This document shows, piece after piece, positions 11,665 through 46,841 of a stretch of 64,000 nucleotides of DNA. The notes under the pieces were generated by a model. The model was not told the origin of the DNA, did not search any database, and saw only the letters and a list, made by a program, of their open reading frames with translations. The first letter of the stretch is position 1; the number at the start of each line of letters is the position of its first letter. The translations under genes and the position numbers were made by a program. This DNA is from Blakeslea trispora (Eukaryota > Mucoromycota > Mucoromycetes > Mucorales > Choanephoraceae), in assembly GCA_025331445.1 (NCBI GenBank), contig JAIWNE010000029.1, positions 62,001 through 126,000 on the forward strand, in the 5' to 3' direction.

Positions 11665-12156
11665 TCTATCTAAAAAAAATAGACAAAAAAAAAAGAAGAC
11701 GAGTTATGAAAAGATATGACAAGTATTTTATTTCTTGTTGTTAAGAGCATTCCTTTTCATTATTATGGTTTAAAAATGCCCAAGTACTTTCAAAATGTGA
11801 ATTTTTCTTTGCATTAATAGACATACTGAGCACATTTTGTATGTGACTGTACTATCTATCCTTTATCTTTCATCAAAATTTAAAGAAATGTGCATAAAAA
11901 CAAACGTGTAATGGTTAATGCCCAAAACAAACGCAACAATAGCATAGATACAAGCTCAAAGTCAATGACTTCTATAGTGTGGCTCTCATGTAAGATATAT
12001 GCGCAAATTTACTCTCCGCTGCATCGGAGCCATAAGTCGCGTCAAGATACGCGTTCTGAGTTTTGAGATAACTTACAATATTCCCCCTCCCCCTTTTTTT
12101 TTTTACTATTAACATCTTTTAATAAGCACAGACTTTAAGGAACAGAAAGAGACAAT
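11665..12156. other. divergent promoter region
   Basis: Shared by the small secreted protein (-) and the reductase homologue (+). Contains the MCB described separately and a C/T-rich tract (about 12083-12105) just before the reductase start. No gene. Confidence 0.6.
12049..12054. promoter_or_regulatory. MluI cell-cycle box (MCB, ACGCGT)
   Basis: ACGCGT sits 103 bp upstream of the reductase-homologue start at 12157, with a related CGCGTC at 12038-12043 and a 5-bp inverted repeat CTCCG/CGGAG at 12014-12029 beside it. In yeasts ACGCGT is bound by MBF and drives G1/S expression of dNTP and replication genes, including ribonucleotide reductase. Use here is inferred. Confidence 0.5.
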
Positions 12157-14645
12157 ATGTATGTCATTAAGAGAGGTAATATCATGAGTTTAAACAAGTC
12201 AAGTAAGAGTGATGACTAATGGTTTTGTAGACGGTACTCAAGAAAAAGTCTTTTTTGACAAGATCAGTTCCCGCATCAGTATTCTTTGTAACGGCCTCGA
12301 GGAGAACAATGTCGACCCTCCTATGATTGCTCAAAAGGTGTGGAAATAACTCATTTCTGTAGATAATGCATGGTTTTCAGGTTTATTCACATACTACTTG
12401 ATAGGTTGTTTCAGCTATGTATCCCGGTATTACGACTGTTCAGCTCGACAACTTGGCTGCGGAAATTGCTGCCAACATGATTGGTATTCATCCTGACTAT
12501 GCAATTCTGTCAGCCAGAATTTCTATCTCAAACCTTCAAAAGGAGACTCATGATAAGTTTTCTCAGGTTATGCAAGATCTCTATAATCATAAACATCCCA
12601 AATCAGGTGGTCCCAATCCTGTCATTGCCAAGGCTTTCCTTGATCTTGTTTTGAAATACGCTGATAAAATAGATGCGATGATTGACTATCAGCGTGATTT
12701 CTATTTATCTTATTTCGGATTCAAGACATTAGAGCAAAACTACTTGTTAAAGTTGGATGAGAAGGTTGTAGAGCGACCACAGCATTTATTCATGCGTGTT
12801 GCTTTAGCTATCCATGGAGAAGATTTGGAGGCCGCTTTTGCTACTTATGACTATACATCCCGCCTCTTGTTTAGTTTTGAGCCTACGACTTTGTTGAATG
12901 CAGGCACAAATAGCGGTCAGCTAGCTAGTGCATTTGAAGTACAGATGAAGGATGATAGCATTGAAGGCATTTATGACACAGTAGCCACTTGTGCTCGTGT
13001 GGCCAAGGGATCTGGCTCTGTTGGTATGAGCTGTCAAAAGATTCGTGCCTCAGGATCTTATATTGCTGGTACAAATGGCACATCTAATGGTATTATTCCT
13101 ATGCTGCGTGTATTTAACGATGCAGCTCGATTCATTACTCCTGGTGCTAGAAGAGTCAAGGGTGCTTACTCCATCTATCTTGAGCCTTGGCATCCTGATA
13201 TTTTTGAATATATTGATCTTTCAAAGCATAATGGTGAAGAGAACTTACGTGCTCGTCATTTATTACTTGGTCTTTGGATTCCTGATTTGTTTATGAAGCG
13301 TGTAGAAGAAAACGGTGAATGGTCCTTGTTGTGCCCCAACGAATGTCCTGGTCTTGATAATTCGATTGGTCAAGCATTTGAAGATCTTTACCTGTCTTAT
13401 GAAAAAGCTGGTAAAGCCAGAAAAACAGTCTCTGCTCAAAAGCTTTGGTTTTCTATCCTGGATTCTCAAATGGAAAGTGGTATGCCTTTCATGTGCTACA
13501 AAGATGCCATCAATCAGAAGAGCAACCAGAAAAATTTAGGTGTTATCACCGGATCCAGTCTTTATCCTGCCACCATACAATATGCTGATGACGAAGAAAT
13601 TGGCTCTGCTAATACAGCCTCTGTATCTCTTACAAGATGTGTCAATGAAGATGGCACATTCGATTTCAGTAAATTGCATGATATCGTCAAGATGGCTGTT
13701 AGGAATTTAGACAAAATGATTGACATCAACGCTTATCCATTAGAGGAAGCCAAGATGGCTGCTCTCAAGCATCGTGGAATTGCTTTGGGTGTCCAAGGTC
13801 TAGCTGATGTTTTCTTAAAGTTGGGTTATCCATTCGATTCTAATGAAGCGCGTCAATTGAACAAATCTTTGTTTGAATCCATTTATTTCGCTGCTCTTGA
13901 AGCTTCCAATGAACTCTCGCAGAAGTCTGGGCCTTATTCTAGCTACGGAGCATCCCCTGTAAGTCAAGGTATACTTCAACATGACATGTGGTCAGTGAGT
14001 GGCTCTGATCATCTTGATTGGGCCACCTTGCGCTCTAAAATTGAAACTCACGGCATTCGTAATTCCGTTTTACTTGCTGTGATGCCTACACCTACCACCA
14101 GTCGGATTTTGGGTAACAATGACAGCATTGAGCCTTATCAAAGCATGGTGTTTGTTCACCGCGGAGCAACCGGAGACATTTATTCTGTTAATCCTCACTT
14201 GATCATGAGTTTAGCTGAACGTGGGTTGTGGAATCCTGAAATGAGAAATGCATTGATTCAGGCCGAAAATGGCTCAATTCAAAAGATTCCAAATATCCCT
14301 GATGATATTAAGGTGCTTTACAAAACGGTATGGGAAATTTCTCAACGTGTAATCATCGATATGTCTGTAGATCGTGGCGCTTTCATTGATCAATCTCAAG
14401 CTCTTAATCTTTTCACGAGTGAACCAAACTATAGTCGTATGTCTTCCATGCACTTCTATTCTTGGAAGAAAGGTCTGAAGACTGGTATGCAATACCTGAA
14501 GTCGGATCCTCAAAGTGCCGCACGCTTAAGTGTCTCTCAAGAAGCTGTAGAACAGTCAGAAGAAGTTGATAACATAACAGATGGTATGGCTGCCATTGCT
14601 TGTTCGCTAGACAATCCAGACGCTTGTGTTAGCTGTAGTGGTTAA
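12157..14645 (+). CDS. ribonucleotide reductase large-subunit homologue, predicted catalytically dead
   Basis: Homologue of class Ia reductase R1. Three exons, 12157-12175, 12231-12337 and 12405-14645, give 788 aa (human R1 792). It aligns end to end, from MYVIKRDGTQEKVFFDKI through the ATP cone to a C-terminal CVSC. The numbering matches human R1 over the active site, and there the residues needed for chemistry are changed: Cys218 is Ala, Cys429 Tyr, Cys444 Ala, Asn427 Ser, Glu431 Ala, Ser202 Pro; the Tyr-Tyr radical-transfer pair near the C-terminus reads Gln738-Tyr739. Kept are Asp57 and Lys88 of the ATP cone and Asp226 of the specificity site, plus fold motifs GSYIAGTNG and LEPWHPDIFEYIDL. 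The frame is uninterrupted, so this is no ordinary pseudogene. A conventional R1 must be encoded elsewhere. Likely role: regulatory partner of R1 or R2, by inference. Confidence 0.93.
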
Positions 14646-42128: not shown

Positions 42129-43796
42129 ATGAAGGCTTCTGATAAAAAGTGCTGCAAGTGTAAGACTGCTGCTGCTACTGTACTTATAAGACAAGCTTGT
42201 TACTGTCAGTAAGTAGTATTTTTCTTTTTTTCAAGCTTTTGTTGCTGCGCTTTCTGATCAGCTGTCAAACTTTTTTTTTTTTCTTTGCAGGTCTTGTTTT
42301 ATTTTTGTTTTCATTGGCAAATACCGTTCCATCTTACTTCGCCTGAAAGACAACAACAGAAAGAATGGAAAGGTTTTGCTTGCATGTTCTGGTGGCCCCT
42401 CTTCAATGTAAGCTTATCTTATTTTGTTATTAACATGTATTCTGATACGAATTGAACCTAGTGCCATGTTAAATTTGACAAAGAATTTTATGCACATTGT
42501 TCCTACCGAAAAGAAGAAAATCCAGCTAATTCCCGAAGCTATTGTATGCCATATTGATGAGAGTAGCTTATTTGAATCTACCGTACGTATTGAAACAATA
42601 TCGAATGACGAAACAAATGACTGATGACTATGTTCATATAGACTGGCTTTTCCGAGAAACTTGAGCAGACAATCAAAGAGAACTACTCTGAATTCGAATA
42701 CTTTAGCTATCGTCTTGAGCAAGTGTTTGGCCCTGAGTTTACAAAGAGCAGTGAATTCAACAAGATCCTCAAATCTACTTCTGGTGGTACAGAGAATAAG
42801 GATTATGAGCATTATGTTCAATGCATCCAAAAGGCTTCAGACAAATCTCTAGCAGAACAGTTAAAGCAACTTTTTTCCAGCATCAAAAAGACATCTGCCA
42901 AGGAAGACTTGTTATGGAACATGAAGATGGCCATGTTGGTTCATGTGGCTAGACGTGAAGGGTAACAAAATAGATTTTGATGGTACCTTTTCTTATCATT
43001 ATTCTCATTTACTTTTTCTTGTAGTTGTATGTATGTATTTATGGCAGACTCTGCCACACGTCAAGCTATCAAGATGATTTCCATGACAAGTAAAGGTCGC
43101 GGTTACAGTTTGCCATTGGACATTGGTGTAGACAACCAACAGAGCTTTTCTGATCTGTGCATCATGAGACCTATGAAGGACATGCTATCAAAGGAGATTG
43201 GGCTATACAATCACTTTTTCAAAATCGATCATTTTGTATTACCACCTTTCAACTTTGGCACAATGATGCCTGCAAAGACTTCTATTGAGCGCTTGACAGA
43301 AGAATTCATTGTTGGCATTGAGCGTGAATTTCCCTCTACCGTCAGCACTATCTGTCGTACTGTTCTCAAGCTGTCTCCTTCAGCTGATATGGACTTTAAA
43401 CGAACATGTGCTATGTGTCTTATGCCTATTGAGGCAGGCAATGCTGAATGGAGAAGACACATCACTGTCACTGATGTCAACGAAACAACAGAGCAAGATA
43501 CGGCTAAGAAGGAGGATGCTTGTTGCAATACTCTAAATGATGGTGGTTGTTGTGGTGGTGGTGGTGATAGCAGTAGTAACTGTAATAGCGACAAAAGCGA
43601 AAAGTTACCCAAGACAGACTTGAATCAATTCTTATGTTACAGCTGTCAAGTAAACTTGAAGGATTACCAAGCTGAATCTATCGAATCCTTACCACCTTAT
43701 ATAAATGAATCTGTTTATGATCAAAGCAGAGATAATCGCTTATTAGATCAAATCAAGGATTTCTTGATAGATGATGATGAAGATGAACAGCAGTAA
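42129..43796 (+). CDS. CTU2: cytoplasmic tRNA 2-thiolation protein 2 (CTU2/Ncs2)
   Basis: Non-catalytic partner of CTU1/Ncs6 in the 2-thiolation of wobble U34 in Lys, Glu and Gln tRNAs, using sulfur from Urm1. Five exons, 42129-42208, 42291-42407, 42462-42582, 42642-42961, 43025-43796; 469 aa. The N-terminus CCKCKTAAATVLIRQACYCQ with a further Cys pair is the CTU2 zinc region; VLLACSGGPSS (about 55-65) is the degenerate PP-loop of this family. Near the C-terminus are CAMCLMPI and LCYSCQ, a second Cys-x2-Cys pair set. Between these lies an unusual insert, DACCNTLNDGGCCGGGGDSS, Cys/Gly-rich. A Lys-poor acidic tail closes the protein. Confidence 0.9.
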
Positions 43797-44056: not shown

Positions 44057-46841
44057 TTAGGGTGCAGAGTTAAATACCCAAAAGGAAGGTATACCTAATC
44101 TTCCTTTTGTTTCATCATCATGCATAACCTTTGCAATATCTTGCTGCAGATCAAAAAAGGCTGGTTCTTGGTTTAGTGCGTCCCATCGATCACCGAAATC
44201 AGCCAAATGTTTAGCCATCCAGATGCGATTGGCTTCTGTTCTATCCTGGACTGCCTCATCAATCTTTGTCTTGGCATGATGGCTGTGATTAAAAGCAGCT
44301 TGCGCTATATAAGCTAAGGGCTTGAGTCTGGATTTAACAAAAGCTGCATCTGTTGCGGTAAGTTGGGGCAATGCATCTAAATATTTTTTGAGATGAGCCA
44401 CAACCGAATGTGAAATCTGTCCCTGATTGGCTGCTGTGTAATGCCAGATATCTTTAGCGATACCTGCATTTTGAATGCCGCGCGTTAACAGGGTCCAATA
44501 TTGGAGATTTAAAGTTTCATAATGAAGCATGGCTCTCCATTCAGTCGGTTGATCGACCTTGGTGTTGCTGGCCAACAGTCTTCCACGCGTTGAGCTCTCT
44601 TCGTATGGCTGAGATCCATCCTCTCTAAATTGTTTACCGATACGCATACGACAACGATTCGCCACACGTAAGAAGAGCCTTACATCATCTGTAAACGCTG
44701 CCATGGCTGTGATCTGAAGGTCGTACAGAACGCCACGATGATCTGTCATCTGAGCCAAATGAATCCCTGTTGGTGAAGTTACCAGGTATTCCAAGAATTC
44801 TGCAGTGATCGCCTGTAAATCGATGTATTCCTTGTGTGTCAGAGCTTGCATATGTCTCAGCATACGAACACAATCCAACAAGGCTGAGACATCTGTCTTG
44901 GTAAGATCGGATGTGTTGAGAATACGGTTGTTGCTGTATTTAGGTACCACATGAGAGATACGACTGAGACTAGGGAAATAATAGCCTTGATCAGACAAGA
45001 AATCAAGTAGATGACTATCGTCTGGTATACGACGTGCTGAATTGTATTCATCTTCATCCTCGACAGCATATTCGTTCAGGAAATGAACACGAATCAGATT
45101 AGCGGCACCACGGCCGTATTTTTCATTGCCAGTGAAATAATTGGCCATCGTCAAGACAGTGACATTTTGTGATAAGGGTCCTAATTCGTCTTTTTCTGGA
45201 ACAGTATCGAATGGGAGACCATCTTCCTTATCTGTAGTAGAAGAGATGGGTGCTAGCCGCTTTTGGCTTTCTTCCAAAATGATGTTGGCCTTCTCTTCAA
45301 GCTGCTCAACAGCACTACGTACTTCTCCACGCTTCATCCAATAGTCGTATCGTACCTGATTCATGGACTTTTCGTTGAAAAGGAATAATCTGTCATGATG
45401 AAATTTGGTGCGAGCAATACTTTCGTCCAAACTGTCCAGAGAGGATTGAATGGCCATCAATCGATTAAAGGCACGGATGGAAGATGCTTCCTTTTTGTTT
45501 TCTTCTTGAGAGGGGTTACCAGAGAACAGACGAAATACCCAGCCAATGTTTTTAAAGTTGCCCTTGTCTTTACTGTAAGGGCGCTCAGTAGGCTCCCAAG
45601 GAACAGTAGGTCTATTGAGTCGACGATTCTCGAGTGCACCTAAACGCCATAGTAACTCAAGCTAATCAAAAAAAAGTCAACCATACAATATCTTTCTGTT
45701 TTCCTTCTTTCTATTTACCTTGCTTCTTCTACCATAACGCATATTGAGGTTGTATTCTTCAGTGGAATCATGACGAAAGATAATTTGAGGCTCTTCTGGT
45801 GTCTTGGGTCGTTCATCCAGATTGTTCAACAAGACTGAATTGTTCAAAAGACGTGTCATTGGCACTACAAAATATTTGACATCTTGGCCATATCTATTTA
45901 ATTGCGATCTAATCTCTTCGAAACCATTTCTACTGAGGTAACAATTGCCATCAAAAGGCATAATCCATTTCGCATTTGGTATACTTCGTCCATGTTCAAT
46001 TGCTGTGTTGCGACCACCATTCTATACAAAAGTAAATAAGTAAACAAGGTAAATCAAAAAAATAGGTGAGACTTACATTGTTCATAGCATAAAGGTTTTT
46101 GGTATGATAGGTATAATCAAGTGCTCGAAGCTTTGATACTTTAGAGAATCGACGATAATCATCAGAATGAAGGAAATCAGCATCAGGAAACTTTTCGAGT
46201 TGAAAATCGAGTTGTTCGTATTCCTGTTGAATGAAAGGCACACGAATGTATTCCATATTGTATGCGTCCAACAGTCGAATGATAGTAGCCTCATTGATGG
46301 GGTCAATGATACGGTTAAGCAAGAAGATTTTGCGAGTATTAGGGAAACTAGGTTCATGGTCTAAAATGAACTGCAAGTTTGACAGTGTCTGTCCTTCCTT
46401 GTGGCGTGGTGGAAGATCGTTACCGATGATACGATAGAGGATGATCTGATCTCGCTCAACAGATGGTGACATGAGAGGGTTCTCCTTGATGTTCCATTTG
46501 GGCTGTACTGAATCCTGTCTGACAAAGCGGAAGAAGGGGAGGTAGCCAAAGATGAACAAGAGACCTGCTAGAGCAAGAAACAGCTTGAACCATTTGTGAT
46601 AGAGCAACGACGAAGAAGAAAGAAAGAGGTTATGCCTGGTGGTATTGTTGGTAATAAACTTTTTGTCTTTACTGTTGTTATAGAAACCCTTGTCCCTCTT
46701 TGAGGAAGAGGAAGGACCCAAGTCTAGCGAAAGCATTTCTGGGGCAAGATAGGCTTGACTTGATTTTCTATGTTTGGTAATATGTTCTGAAGAAGAAGAA
46801 GCGTTGTTATTTACATCGTGTTTTAAAAAAGGTGGCAACAT
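44057..46841 (-). CDS. type II membrane protein: glycosyltransferase-like domain fused to alginate-lyase-like domain
   Basis: Three exons, 46841-46077, 46021-45719 and 45661-44057, give 890 aa. A cytosolic Ser/Asn-rich tail precedes one membrane helix (about 83-103, WFKLFLALAGLLFIFGYLPF), so the rest should face the Golgi lumen or cell exterior. Residues about 125-350 include ILYRIIGNDLPPRHKEGQTL, KLRALDY, NGGRNTAIEHGR and WIMPFDGNCYLS, a pattern like processive or stealth-type transferases; the catalytic base is not certain. From about 520 to 840 it matches alginate-lyase-type (PF05426) helices: NVTVLTMANYFTGNEKYGRG, then LEYLVTSPTGIHLAQMTDHR and GVLYDLQITAMAAFTDDVRL. A role with glucuronic-acid polymers of the Mucorales wall is inferred. 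Confidence 0.72.

Follow-up and report, generated by a model that had tools for sequence, protein, structure and literature searches.

The DNA analysed here, referred to as the window, is a stretch of 64,000 nucleotides from Blakeslea trispora, and at 12157-14645 on its forward strand it encodes a homologue of the ribonucleotide reductase (RNR) large subunit (R1) that by sequence is catalytically dead and is named alpha-prime in this report. When its three exons are joined and translated, 788 codons are obtained with a single terminal stop at 14645 (Table 1), so that the 788 codons of the initial annotation are indeed free of internal stops, but are divided among three exons instead of forming one open frame. 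The Pfam domains ATP-cone, Ribonuc_red_lgN and Ribonuc_red_lgC follow one another in order and at full length, with 45.1, 61.0 and 569.6 bits, respectively, all above the curated cut-offs, and alpha-prime belongs by sequence to the class Ia ribonucleotide reductase large-subunit family. The human R1 numbering that had been assumed throughout is valid up to about residue 661, where a one-residue insertion, found among the dead proteins described below only in the window protein and that of Choanephora, shifts the remainder; Gln738-Tyr739 of alpha-prime therefore correspond to human Tyr737-Tyr738.

By eye, the first intron interrupts the same codon in the same phase in alpha-prime and in the canonical R1 gene on contig C238, and five further introns of the canonical gene are absent from alpha-prime, with which the pieces found by tblastn are consistent. 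With the first canonical intron kept and the five later ones missing, the absence of introns is biased towards the 3' end, as loss by way of cDNA would be expected to leave it. Elsewhere in the window lie a fungal-specific transcription factor (PF04082, 32998-35205, +), a CTU2-like tRNA thiolation protein (43029-43796, +) and an open frame with an alginate lyase domain (44057-45460, -; 70.4 bits); no RNR-related neighbour was found among the ten window frames scanned with Pfam, and five frames had no Pfam match.

Table 1. Features of the alpha-prime gene (window coordinates; dead rows are the 17 aligned R1 proteins without a working catalytic set, alpha-prime included).
Feature	Position	Strand	Remark
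Promoter pair, GTCGCGTCAA (12036) and ACGCGT (12049)	12036-12054	+	Motif picked after looking; suggestive only
Exon 1	12157-12175	+	MYVIKR and first base of codon 7
Intron 1, GT...AG	12176-12230	+	Same position as intron 1 of canonical R1
Exon 2	12231-12337	+	ATP-cone; holds Glu11, Asp16, Lys17
Intron 2, GT...AG	12338-12404	+	Absent from canonical R1 gene
Exon 3	12405-14645	+	Residues 43-788 and stop: remaining ATP cone, all-alpha domain, barrel, C-terminal tail
Asp57 codon (activity site)	12447-12449	+	Asp in 17/17 dead rows
Codon 218, Ala for redox Cys218	12930-12932	+	No Cys in 17/17 dead rows
Asp226 codon (specificity site)	12954-12956	+	Asp in 17/17 dead rows
Codon 288, Pro for loop-2 Gln	13140-13142	+	Pro in 17/17 dead rows
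Codon 429, Tyr for thiyl-radical Cys429	13563-13565	+	
Codon 444, Ala for redox Cys444	13608-13610	+	
Codon 738, Gln for radical-relay Tyr737	14490-14492	+	
C-terminal CxxC, Cys783 and Cys786	14625-14636	+	Both in 17/17 dead rows

In the spliced protein the catalytic losses listed in the initial annotation are all present (C218A, C429Y, C444A, N427S, E431A, S202P and Gln738-Tyr739), as are the residues reported there as retained, namely Asp57, Lys88, Asp226 and the C-terminal CxxC. To these are added the loop-2 changes Q288P and R293V, together with G247S, P203T and A605P. Judged by its sequence, alpha-prime would not be a catalytically competent R1, as it has neither the active-site cysteines, nor Asn427 and Glu431, nor the Tyr737-Tyr738 relay. 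Sixteen database sequences, in addition to that of the window, are changed at these catalytic positions, and the losses are thus due neither to chance nor to sequencing error, although in a few of the 16 one cysteine persists.

The second, canonical R1 for which a genome search had been proposed was found in three pieces on contig C238. Profile searches of the Blakeslea genome with PF02867 gave two loci only, alpha-prime and this canonical R1, and those with PF00317 likewise gave two, whereas PF00268 located one R2 gene, on contig C101. Every catalytic residue is present in the canonical Blakeslea R1 (P0031), and several of the motifs were also read directly on C238. No class II enzyme was found in the genome by a PF17975 profile search; a passage in PMC7928374, in contrast, attributes a class II ribonucleotide reductase (nrdJ) to Mucorales.

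Homologues were collected in two database searches, each giving the best 120 of 8000 scored candidates that shared most words. Among the matches listed there are 156 distinct proteins, which together with the window protein form 17 dead and 140 catalytically complete rows, a row being a cluster at 90% identity and not a species. Twelve of the dead rows among these matches come from eight named genera of Mucorales and five, all of them among the 16 database rows, are without an organism name; no dead R1 has a name from outside Mucorales among the matches listed. The 11 named species among the matches, Blakeslea included, are, besides B. trispora, Choanephora cucurbitarum, Gilbertella persicaria, Mycotypha africana, Mucor lusitanicus, Mucor mucedo, Rhizopus microsporus, R. 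arrhizus, R. stolonifer, Benjaminiella poitrasii and Cokeromyces recurvatus. For six of them (Blakeslea, Choanephora, M. mucedo, R. stolonifer, R. arrhizus and Benjaminiella) a canonical partner from the same species is also among the matches listed, and the lack of a named partner for the other five in that set may be an effect of clustering. Where source names are visible, the dead proteins are labelled as ribonucleotide reductase or a subunit of it (one also as a hypothetical protein), and metabolic models of these fungi may therefore count a dead subunit as an enzyme.

The catalytic positions separate the two sets of rows. Cys218, Gln288, Glu431, Cys444, Tyr737, Tyr738 and Asp57 are present in 140/140 of the other rows, Asn427 and Cys429 in 139 with one gap row, and the tail cysteines in 138, the other two being gap rows. 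All 17 dead rows are devoid of both Cys218 and the relay tyrosine Tyr737, position 218 being Phe in 13, Ala in three and Asp in one, and position 737 Gln in 16 and His in one; Tyr738 is replaced by Phe in ten and kept in seven. Gln288, invariant in the other rows, is Pro throughout. Position 429 is His in nine, Asn in three, Tyr in two, Ser in one, Cys in one (Rhizopus stolonifer, P0016) and a gap in one, and position 444 is Ala in nine, Thr in four, Cys in three and Val in one. Glu431 has given way to Asp (seven), Asn (six) or Ala (three), with one gap and no Glu among the 16 readable rows, whereas Asn427 is retained in seven of 16 readable rows. Isolated catalytic residues thus persist in a few dead rows, yet to judge from these residues a working set is present in none of the 17. 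Two cysteines, Cys406 and Cys454, are newly fixed in 16/16 dead rows and could possibly form a structural disulphide or a metal site, and cysteines 411, 544 and 616 are lost besides the catalytic ones. Counts over 16 dead rows leave out P0033, which has a gap over 427-431 and, like P0005, is from Mucor lusitanicus, possibly from the same gene. Of the 17 dead gene models, ten start near residue 47, with the first 46 residues missing entirely or almost so; missed exons are the likely cause, because M. lusitanicus is represented by a short model (P0005) as well as by one that includes the first residues (P0033), although the ATP cone may be truncated in some species.

Orthologues of alpha-prime, which the initial annotation had proposed to collect, are thus spread across Mucorales, and they form one clade both in a quick 62-row tree (14 dead; SH-aLRT 100) and in a more careful 33-row tree (10 dead; 100/100), these trees being built from 14 and 10 of the 17 dead rows with a chosen part of the 140 others and no viral rows. 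On this phylogenetic evidence the dead genes share a single origin. Their clade branches within Mucoromycotina R1, its stem being about 0.5-0.7 changes per site long. A topology holding the dead rows together with the local canonical rows, with a duplication in the Mucor-Rhizopus-Choanephora ancestor, was not rejected (p-AU 0.302); this placement was nevertheless not adopted, as the trees do not position the long dead branch. Catalytically intact R1 proteins from a much deeper branch occur in Dichotomocladium, Umbelopsis, Lichtheimia, Halteromyces and Phascolomyces (P0078, P0110, P0111, P0120 and P0154); none bears the name of a dead-R1 species among the matches listed, and the two copies may therefore be mutually exclusive.

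In four matched species pairs the amount of change in the dead copy is 2.41, 2.78, 2.91 and 2.47 times that in its canonical counterpart, a canonical row named R. azygosporus substituting for R. microsporus in one pair. Constraint was gauged at the protein level: 344 of 741 readable columns are invariant in ten dead rows, where about 107 would be expected under a uniform rate on the same tree length, and this is a strong argument against a decaying pseudogene. Moreover, 22 residues, including Pro288, Lys294, Asn322 and Met623, are fixed in 16 dead rows and never occur in 32 canonical Mucorales rows, loop 2 having been fixed in a new form (P288, V/I293, K294). Of 223 sites that are invariant in the 140 other rows, 83 differ in one or more of the dead rows, with many of these sites falling at 203-220, 247, 282-298, 427-431, 443-446, 601-611, 621-634 and 738-739, a pattern that fits a protein in which substrate chemistry is lost and the remainder is still under selection. 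Neutral evolution of the frame, which the initial annotation had said would speak against its reading, is not what these comparisons suggest, as site-specific constraint is strong; evolution is nevertheless relaxed in part, at 2.4-2.9 times the rate of the canonical copy.

Retention was calculated for classes of functional sites as the share of the canonical letter in 16 dead rows, with P values relative to sites at least 90% conserved in the 140 others. Eight further residues of the catalytic site, distinct from the published ones given below, are retained at 0.43 (P = 0.005), and the Tyr pair at 0.19 (P = 0.03). The residues that we take to constitute the specificity site (S-site) are retained at 1.00, every position being identical in 16/16 rows (P = 0.009 for so high a value), and those that we take to constitute the activity site (A-site) in the ATP cone at 0.98 (P = 0.06), where the first four positions are readable in six rows only and one dead row has Asn for Lys5. 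For eight residues of the substrate site and loop 2 that a review of R1 (PMC3483043) names, the value is 0.13 (P = 5e-5). For the site that binds the R2 tail, listed in section 20 of PMC3483043 and mapped through the alignment, retention is 0.82 (P = 0.36): 14 of the 17 positions show no change in 15 or more of the 16 rows, and 719 (Ser, 15/16), 720 (Arg) and 722 (Ser) carry fixed or nearly fixed replacements. In the C-terminal tail it is 0.86 (P = 0.33), six of seven positions, among them both cysteines and the final Ser-Gly, being kept in 16/16 and Leu777 being fixed anew. The tail, the R2-tail site and the ATP cone are not clearly above equally conserved sites, which indicates retention and not special protection; only the S-site exceeds them. 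Since loop 2 has been rewritten, the canonical coupling of effector to substrate is probably inoperable in alpha-prime.

An AlphaFold2 model of residues 43-788 (pLDDT 80.8, pTM 0.84) has human R1 (PDB entry 3hnc) as its best PDB match, with a TM score of 0.90 and 56% identity, and its low-confidence stretches include model residues 243-251 (285-293 of the window protein, loop 2) and the tail. Because the alignment used for the model held canonical R1 rows, the prediction supports a retained R1 fold and not a new conformation.

Upstream of the alpha-prime ATG, TCGCGT lies at -120 and ACGCGT at -108. Counting either strand, seven of nine S-phase genes (canonical R1, R2, PCNA and four of six MCM) have TCGCGT no more than 300 bp from the chosen ATG, against none of nine control CCT/Cpn60 loci (600 bp) and a background of 2.4% of the 300-bp stretches of the window; the motif was chosen post hoc, start codons were placed by eye, and the controls were measured from the first Pfam match and not from the ATG. 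These controls are nine of 12 matching CCT/Cpn60 loci, from which C277 (contig edge) and C190 and C230 (partial matches, long frames) were omitted. The 10-mer GTCGCGTCAA is not enriched genome-wide, with 16 occurrences against 25 for the backward control; three of the 16 lie upstream of alpha-prime, PCNA and an MCM gene, and the neighbours of the other 13 seemed by eye to be mixed, some lying in repeats. TCGCGT is taken as a hint, suggestive only, that alpha-prime is co-expressed with replication genes, and alpha-prime would be made in S phase.

ACGCGT was rejected as a candidate cell-cycle (MBF) box, as it occurs at seven of nine control loci (600 bp) versus three of nine S-phase genes (300 bp). 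The seven CCT/Cpn60 loci concerned (L028, L036, L038 and L043-L046) carry ACGCGT in the 600 bp that precede the first Pfam match, whereas TCGCGT is present at none of the nine controls; the genome rate of ACGCGT is one per 15.7 kb, and the two motifs may mark different regulons in Blakeslea. The locus at the edge of C277 (6-1406, -) matches the Cpn60 type over a frame of 557 amino acids that has no interruption, and is perhaps a bacterial contaminant or a mitochondrial-type Hsp60.

With moderate confidence, we consider alpha-prime to be a duplicated class I R1 that has been retained as a non-catalytic regulatory subunit assembling with active R1 and R2. The initial annotation had proposed a protein kept for allosteric sensing or assembly with the genuine R1 and R2, and this is supported in part by the death of the site as read from sequence, the presence of a canonical R1, orthologues in one clade, constraint, and the retention of allosteric, R2-docking and C-terminal positions, although evolution is also partly relaxed. 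Alpha-prime would probably join canonical R1 through the preserved dimer face at the specificity site and through the ATP cone, and would still dock the R2 tail, so that in a mixed alpha/alpha-prime complex the chemistry would be performed by the canonical subunit alone while alpha-prime set the oligomeric and allosteric state according to ATP/dATP and the effector dNTPs. As described in the review PMC3483043, loop 2 connects the specificity site of one subunit to the catalytic site of its neighbour, dimerization requires effector binding, and inhibition by dATP requires prior hexamerization. Acting in trans, the conserved CxxC tail of alpha-prime could also bring the disulphide in the active site of an adjacent active subunit back to its reduced state, and a passage in PMC3618301 describes the tail of an adjacent R1 subunit as reducing the active site of its partner. 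As the dead proteins have no disulphide of their own yet keep the CxxC in 17/17 rows, the tail is best explained as serving another R1, that is, by a mixed complex. A more specific proposal, put forward tentatively, is that the Mucor-Rhizopus-Choanephora group has an asymmetric RNR in which alpha-prime accompanies active R1 and contributes allosteric sites, R2 docking and a trans-acting CxxC tail, dNTP supply then depending on the ratio of the large subunits.

Among the alternatives, a repurposed scaffold or signalling protein that no longer works with RNR, as in the inactive R1 of betaherpesviruses, appears unlikely. The long stem (0.68) and the 22 newly fixed residues would suit such a change, and dead betaherpesvirus R1 proteins have non-RNR roles according to a passage in PMC11772975; however, the R2-tail site, specificity site, ATP cone and CxxC tail have been retained, and a pure scaffold needs neither a CxxC nor effector contacts. 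There is a smaller chance that alpha-prime is a self-contained homodimeric dNTP sensor, signalling through its A- and S-sites to another pathway without R1: S-site positions identical in 16/16 rows and a loop 2 fixed anew (P288, V/I293, K294) are in keeping with this, but it offers no obvious use for the retained R2 docking and redox tail. A dominant-negative titrator, whose binding to R2 or R1 would serve only to reduce RNR activity, for example outside S phase, is improbable, as the tail cysteines would be superfluous and the replication-like promoter, with its post hoc TCGCGT motif, hints at co-expression with R1, even though the R2-tail site is retained and the radical relay is interrupted at Tyr737 (Gln in 16 and His in one of 17). 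A relaxed duplicate on its way to a pseudogene, to which the 2.4-2.9-fold faster change in four matched species pairs could point, is hardly credible given a long open frame in eight named genera (10 of 17 models starting near residue 47), 344 of 741 columns invariant against 107 expected and 22 residues fixed anew in 16 dead rows. Equally hard to credit is a cryptic or altered catalysis with another residue replacing Cys429, which the new Cys406 and Cys454 in 16/16 rows, Cys429 in one row and Cys444 in three might recommend, because position 429 varies (Tyr, Ser, His, Asn and one Cys), Glu431 is found in none of 16 readable rows, and all 17 rows have lost both Cys218 and the first Tyr of the relay.

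If the regulatory-subunit reading is correct, alpha-prime would be a conserved cellular pseudo-R1 and the large-subunit counterpart of yeast Rnr4. It would represent a natural split of catalysis from allostery in R1, from which it might be learned which functions a subunit free of chemistry can supply, those in question being the dATP hexamer, effector sensing, the tail in trans and R2 docking. In the titles and abstract openings of the best-matching open-access papers listed, no dead R1 of a fungus or other cellular organism is described.

In comparison with known systems, alpha-prime shares with human RRM1 and yeast Rnr1 the ATP cone, lgN and lgC domains, the predicted fold, the allosteric and docking residues and the CxxC tail, whereas it lacks their thiyl-radical Cys, redox pair and Glu431, and its loop 2 is rewritten and its Tyr relay broken. 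Yeast Rnr3, whose active site is intact, is like alpha-prime a second R1 next to the main R1. Rnr1 and Rnr3 are referred to as a cross-talking complex, in which Rnr3 has very low catalytic activity, in a title in the reference list of PMC5673236; by this title Rnr3 is not dead, unlike alpha-prime. The betaherpesvirus R1 homologues resemble alpha-prime in being R1 without enzymatic activity (PMC11772975), but they are viral, with host-signalling roles and no R2 in those viruses, whereas the Blakeslea genome has an R2. Alpha-prime is accordingly not of the betaherpesvirus type, that is, a viral gene with no R2 beside it, and since the dead rows lie inside fungal R1, in trees without viral rows, its origin would be independent of that of betaherpesvirus R1. 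Neurospora UN-24, in the account given in PMC3618301, is likewise a fungal R1 with a C-terminal tail that acts on another R1, although it is a single active R1 and the effect is heterokaryon incompatibility. Yeast Rnr4 is, like alpha-prime, a fast-evolving duplicate of an RNR subunit that has lost its catalytic centre: according to passages in PMC2704937 it has lost three iron ligands, is the heterodimer partner of Rnr2 and has a dN/dS of 0.497 versus 0.119 for Rnr2. Rnr4, however, belongs to the small-subunit (R2) family, whereas alpha-prime is a large subunit with a putative partner role.
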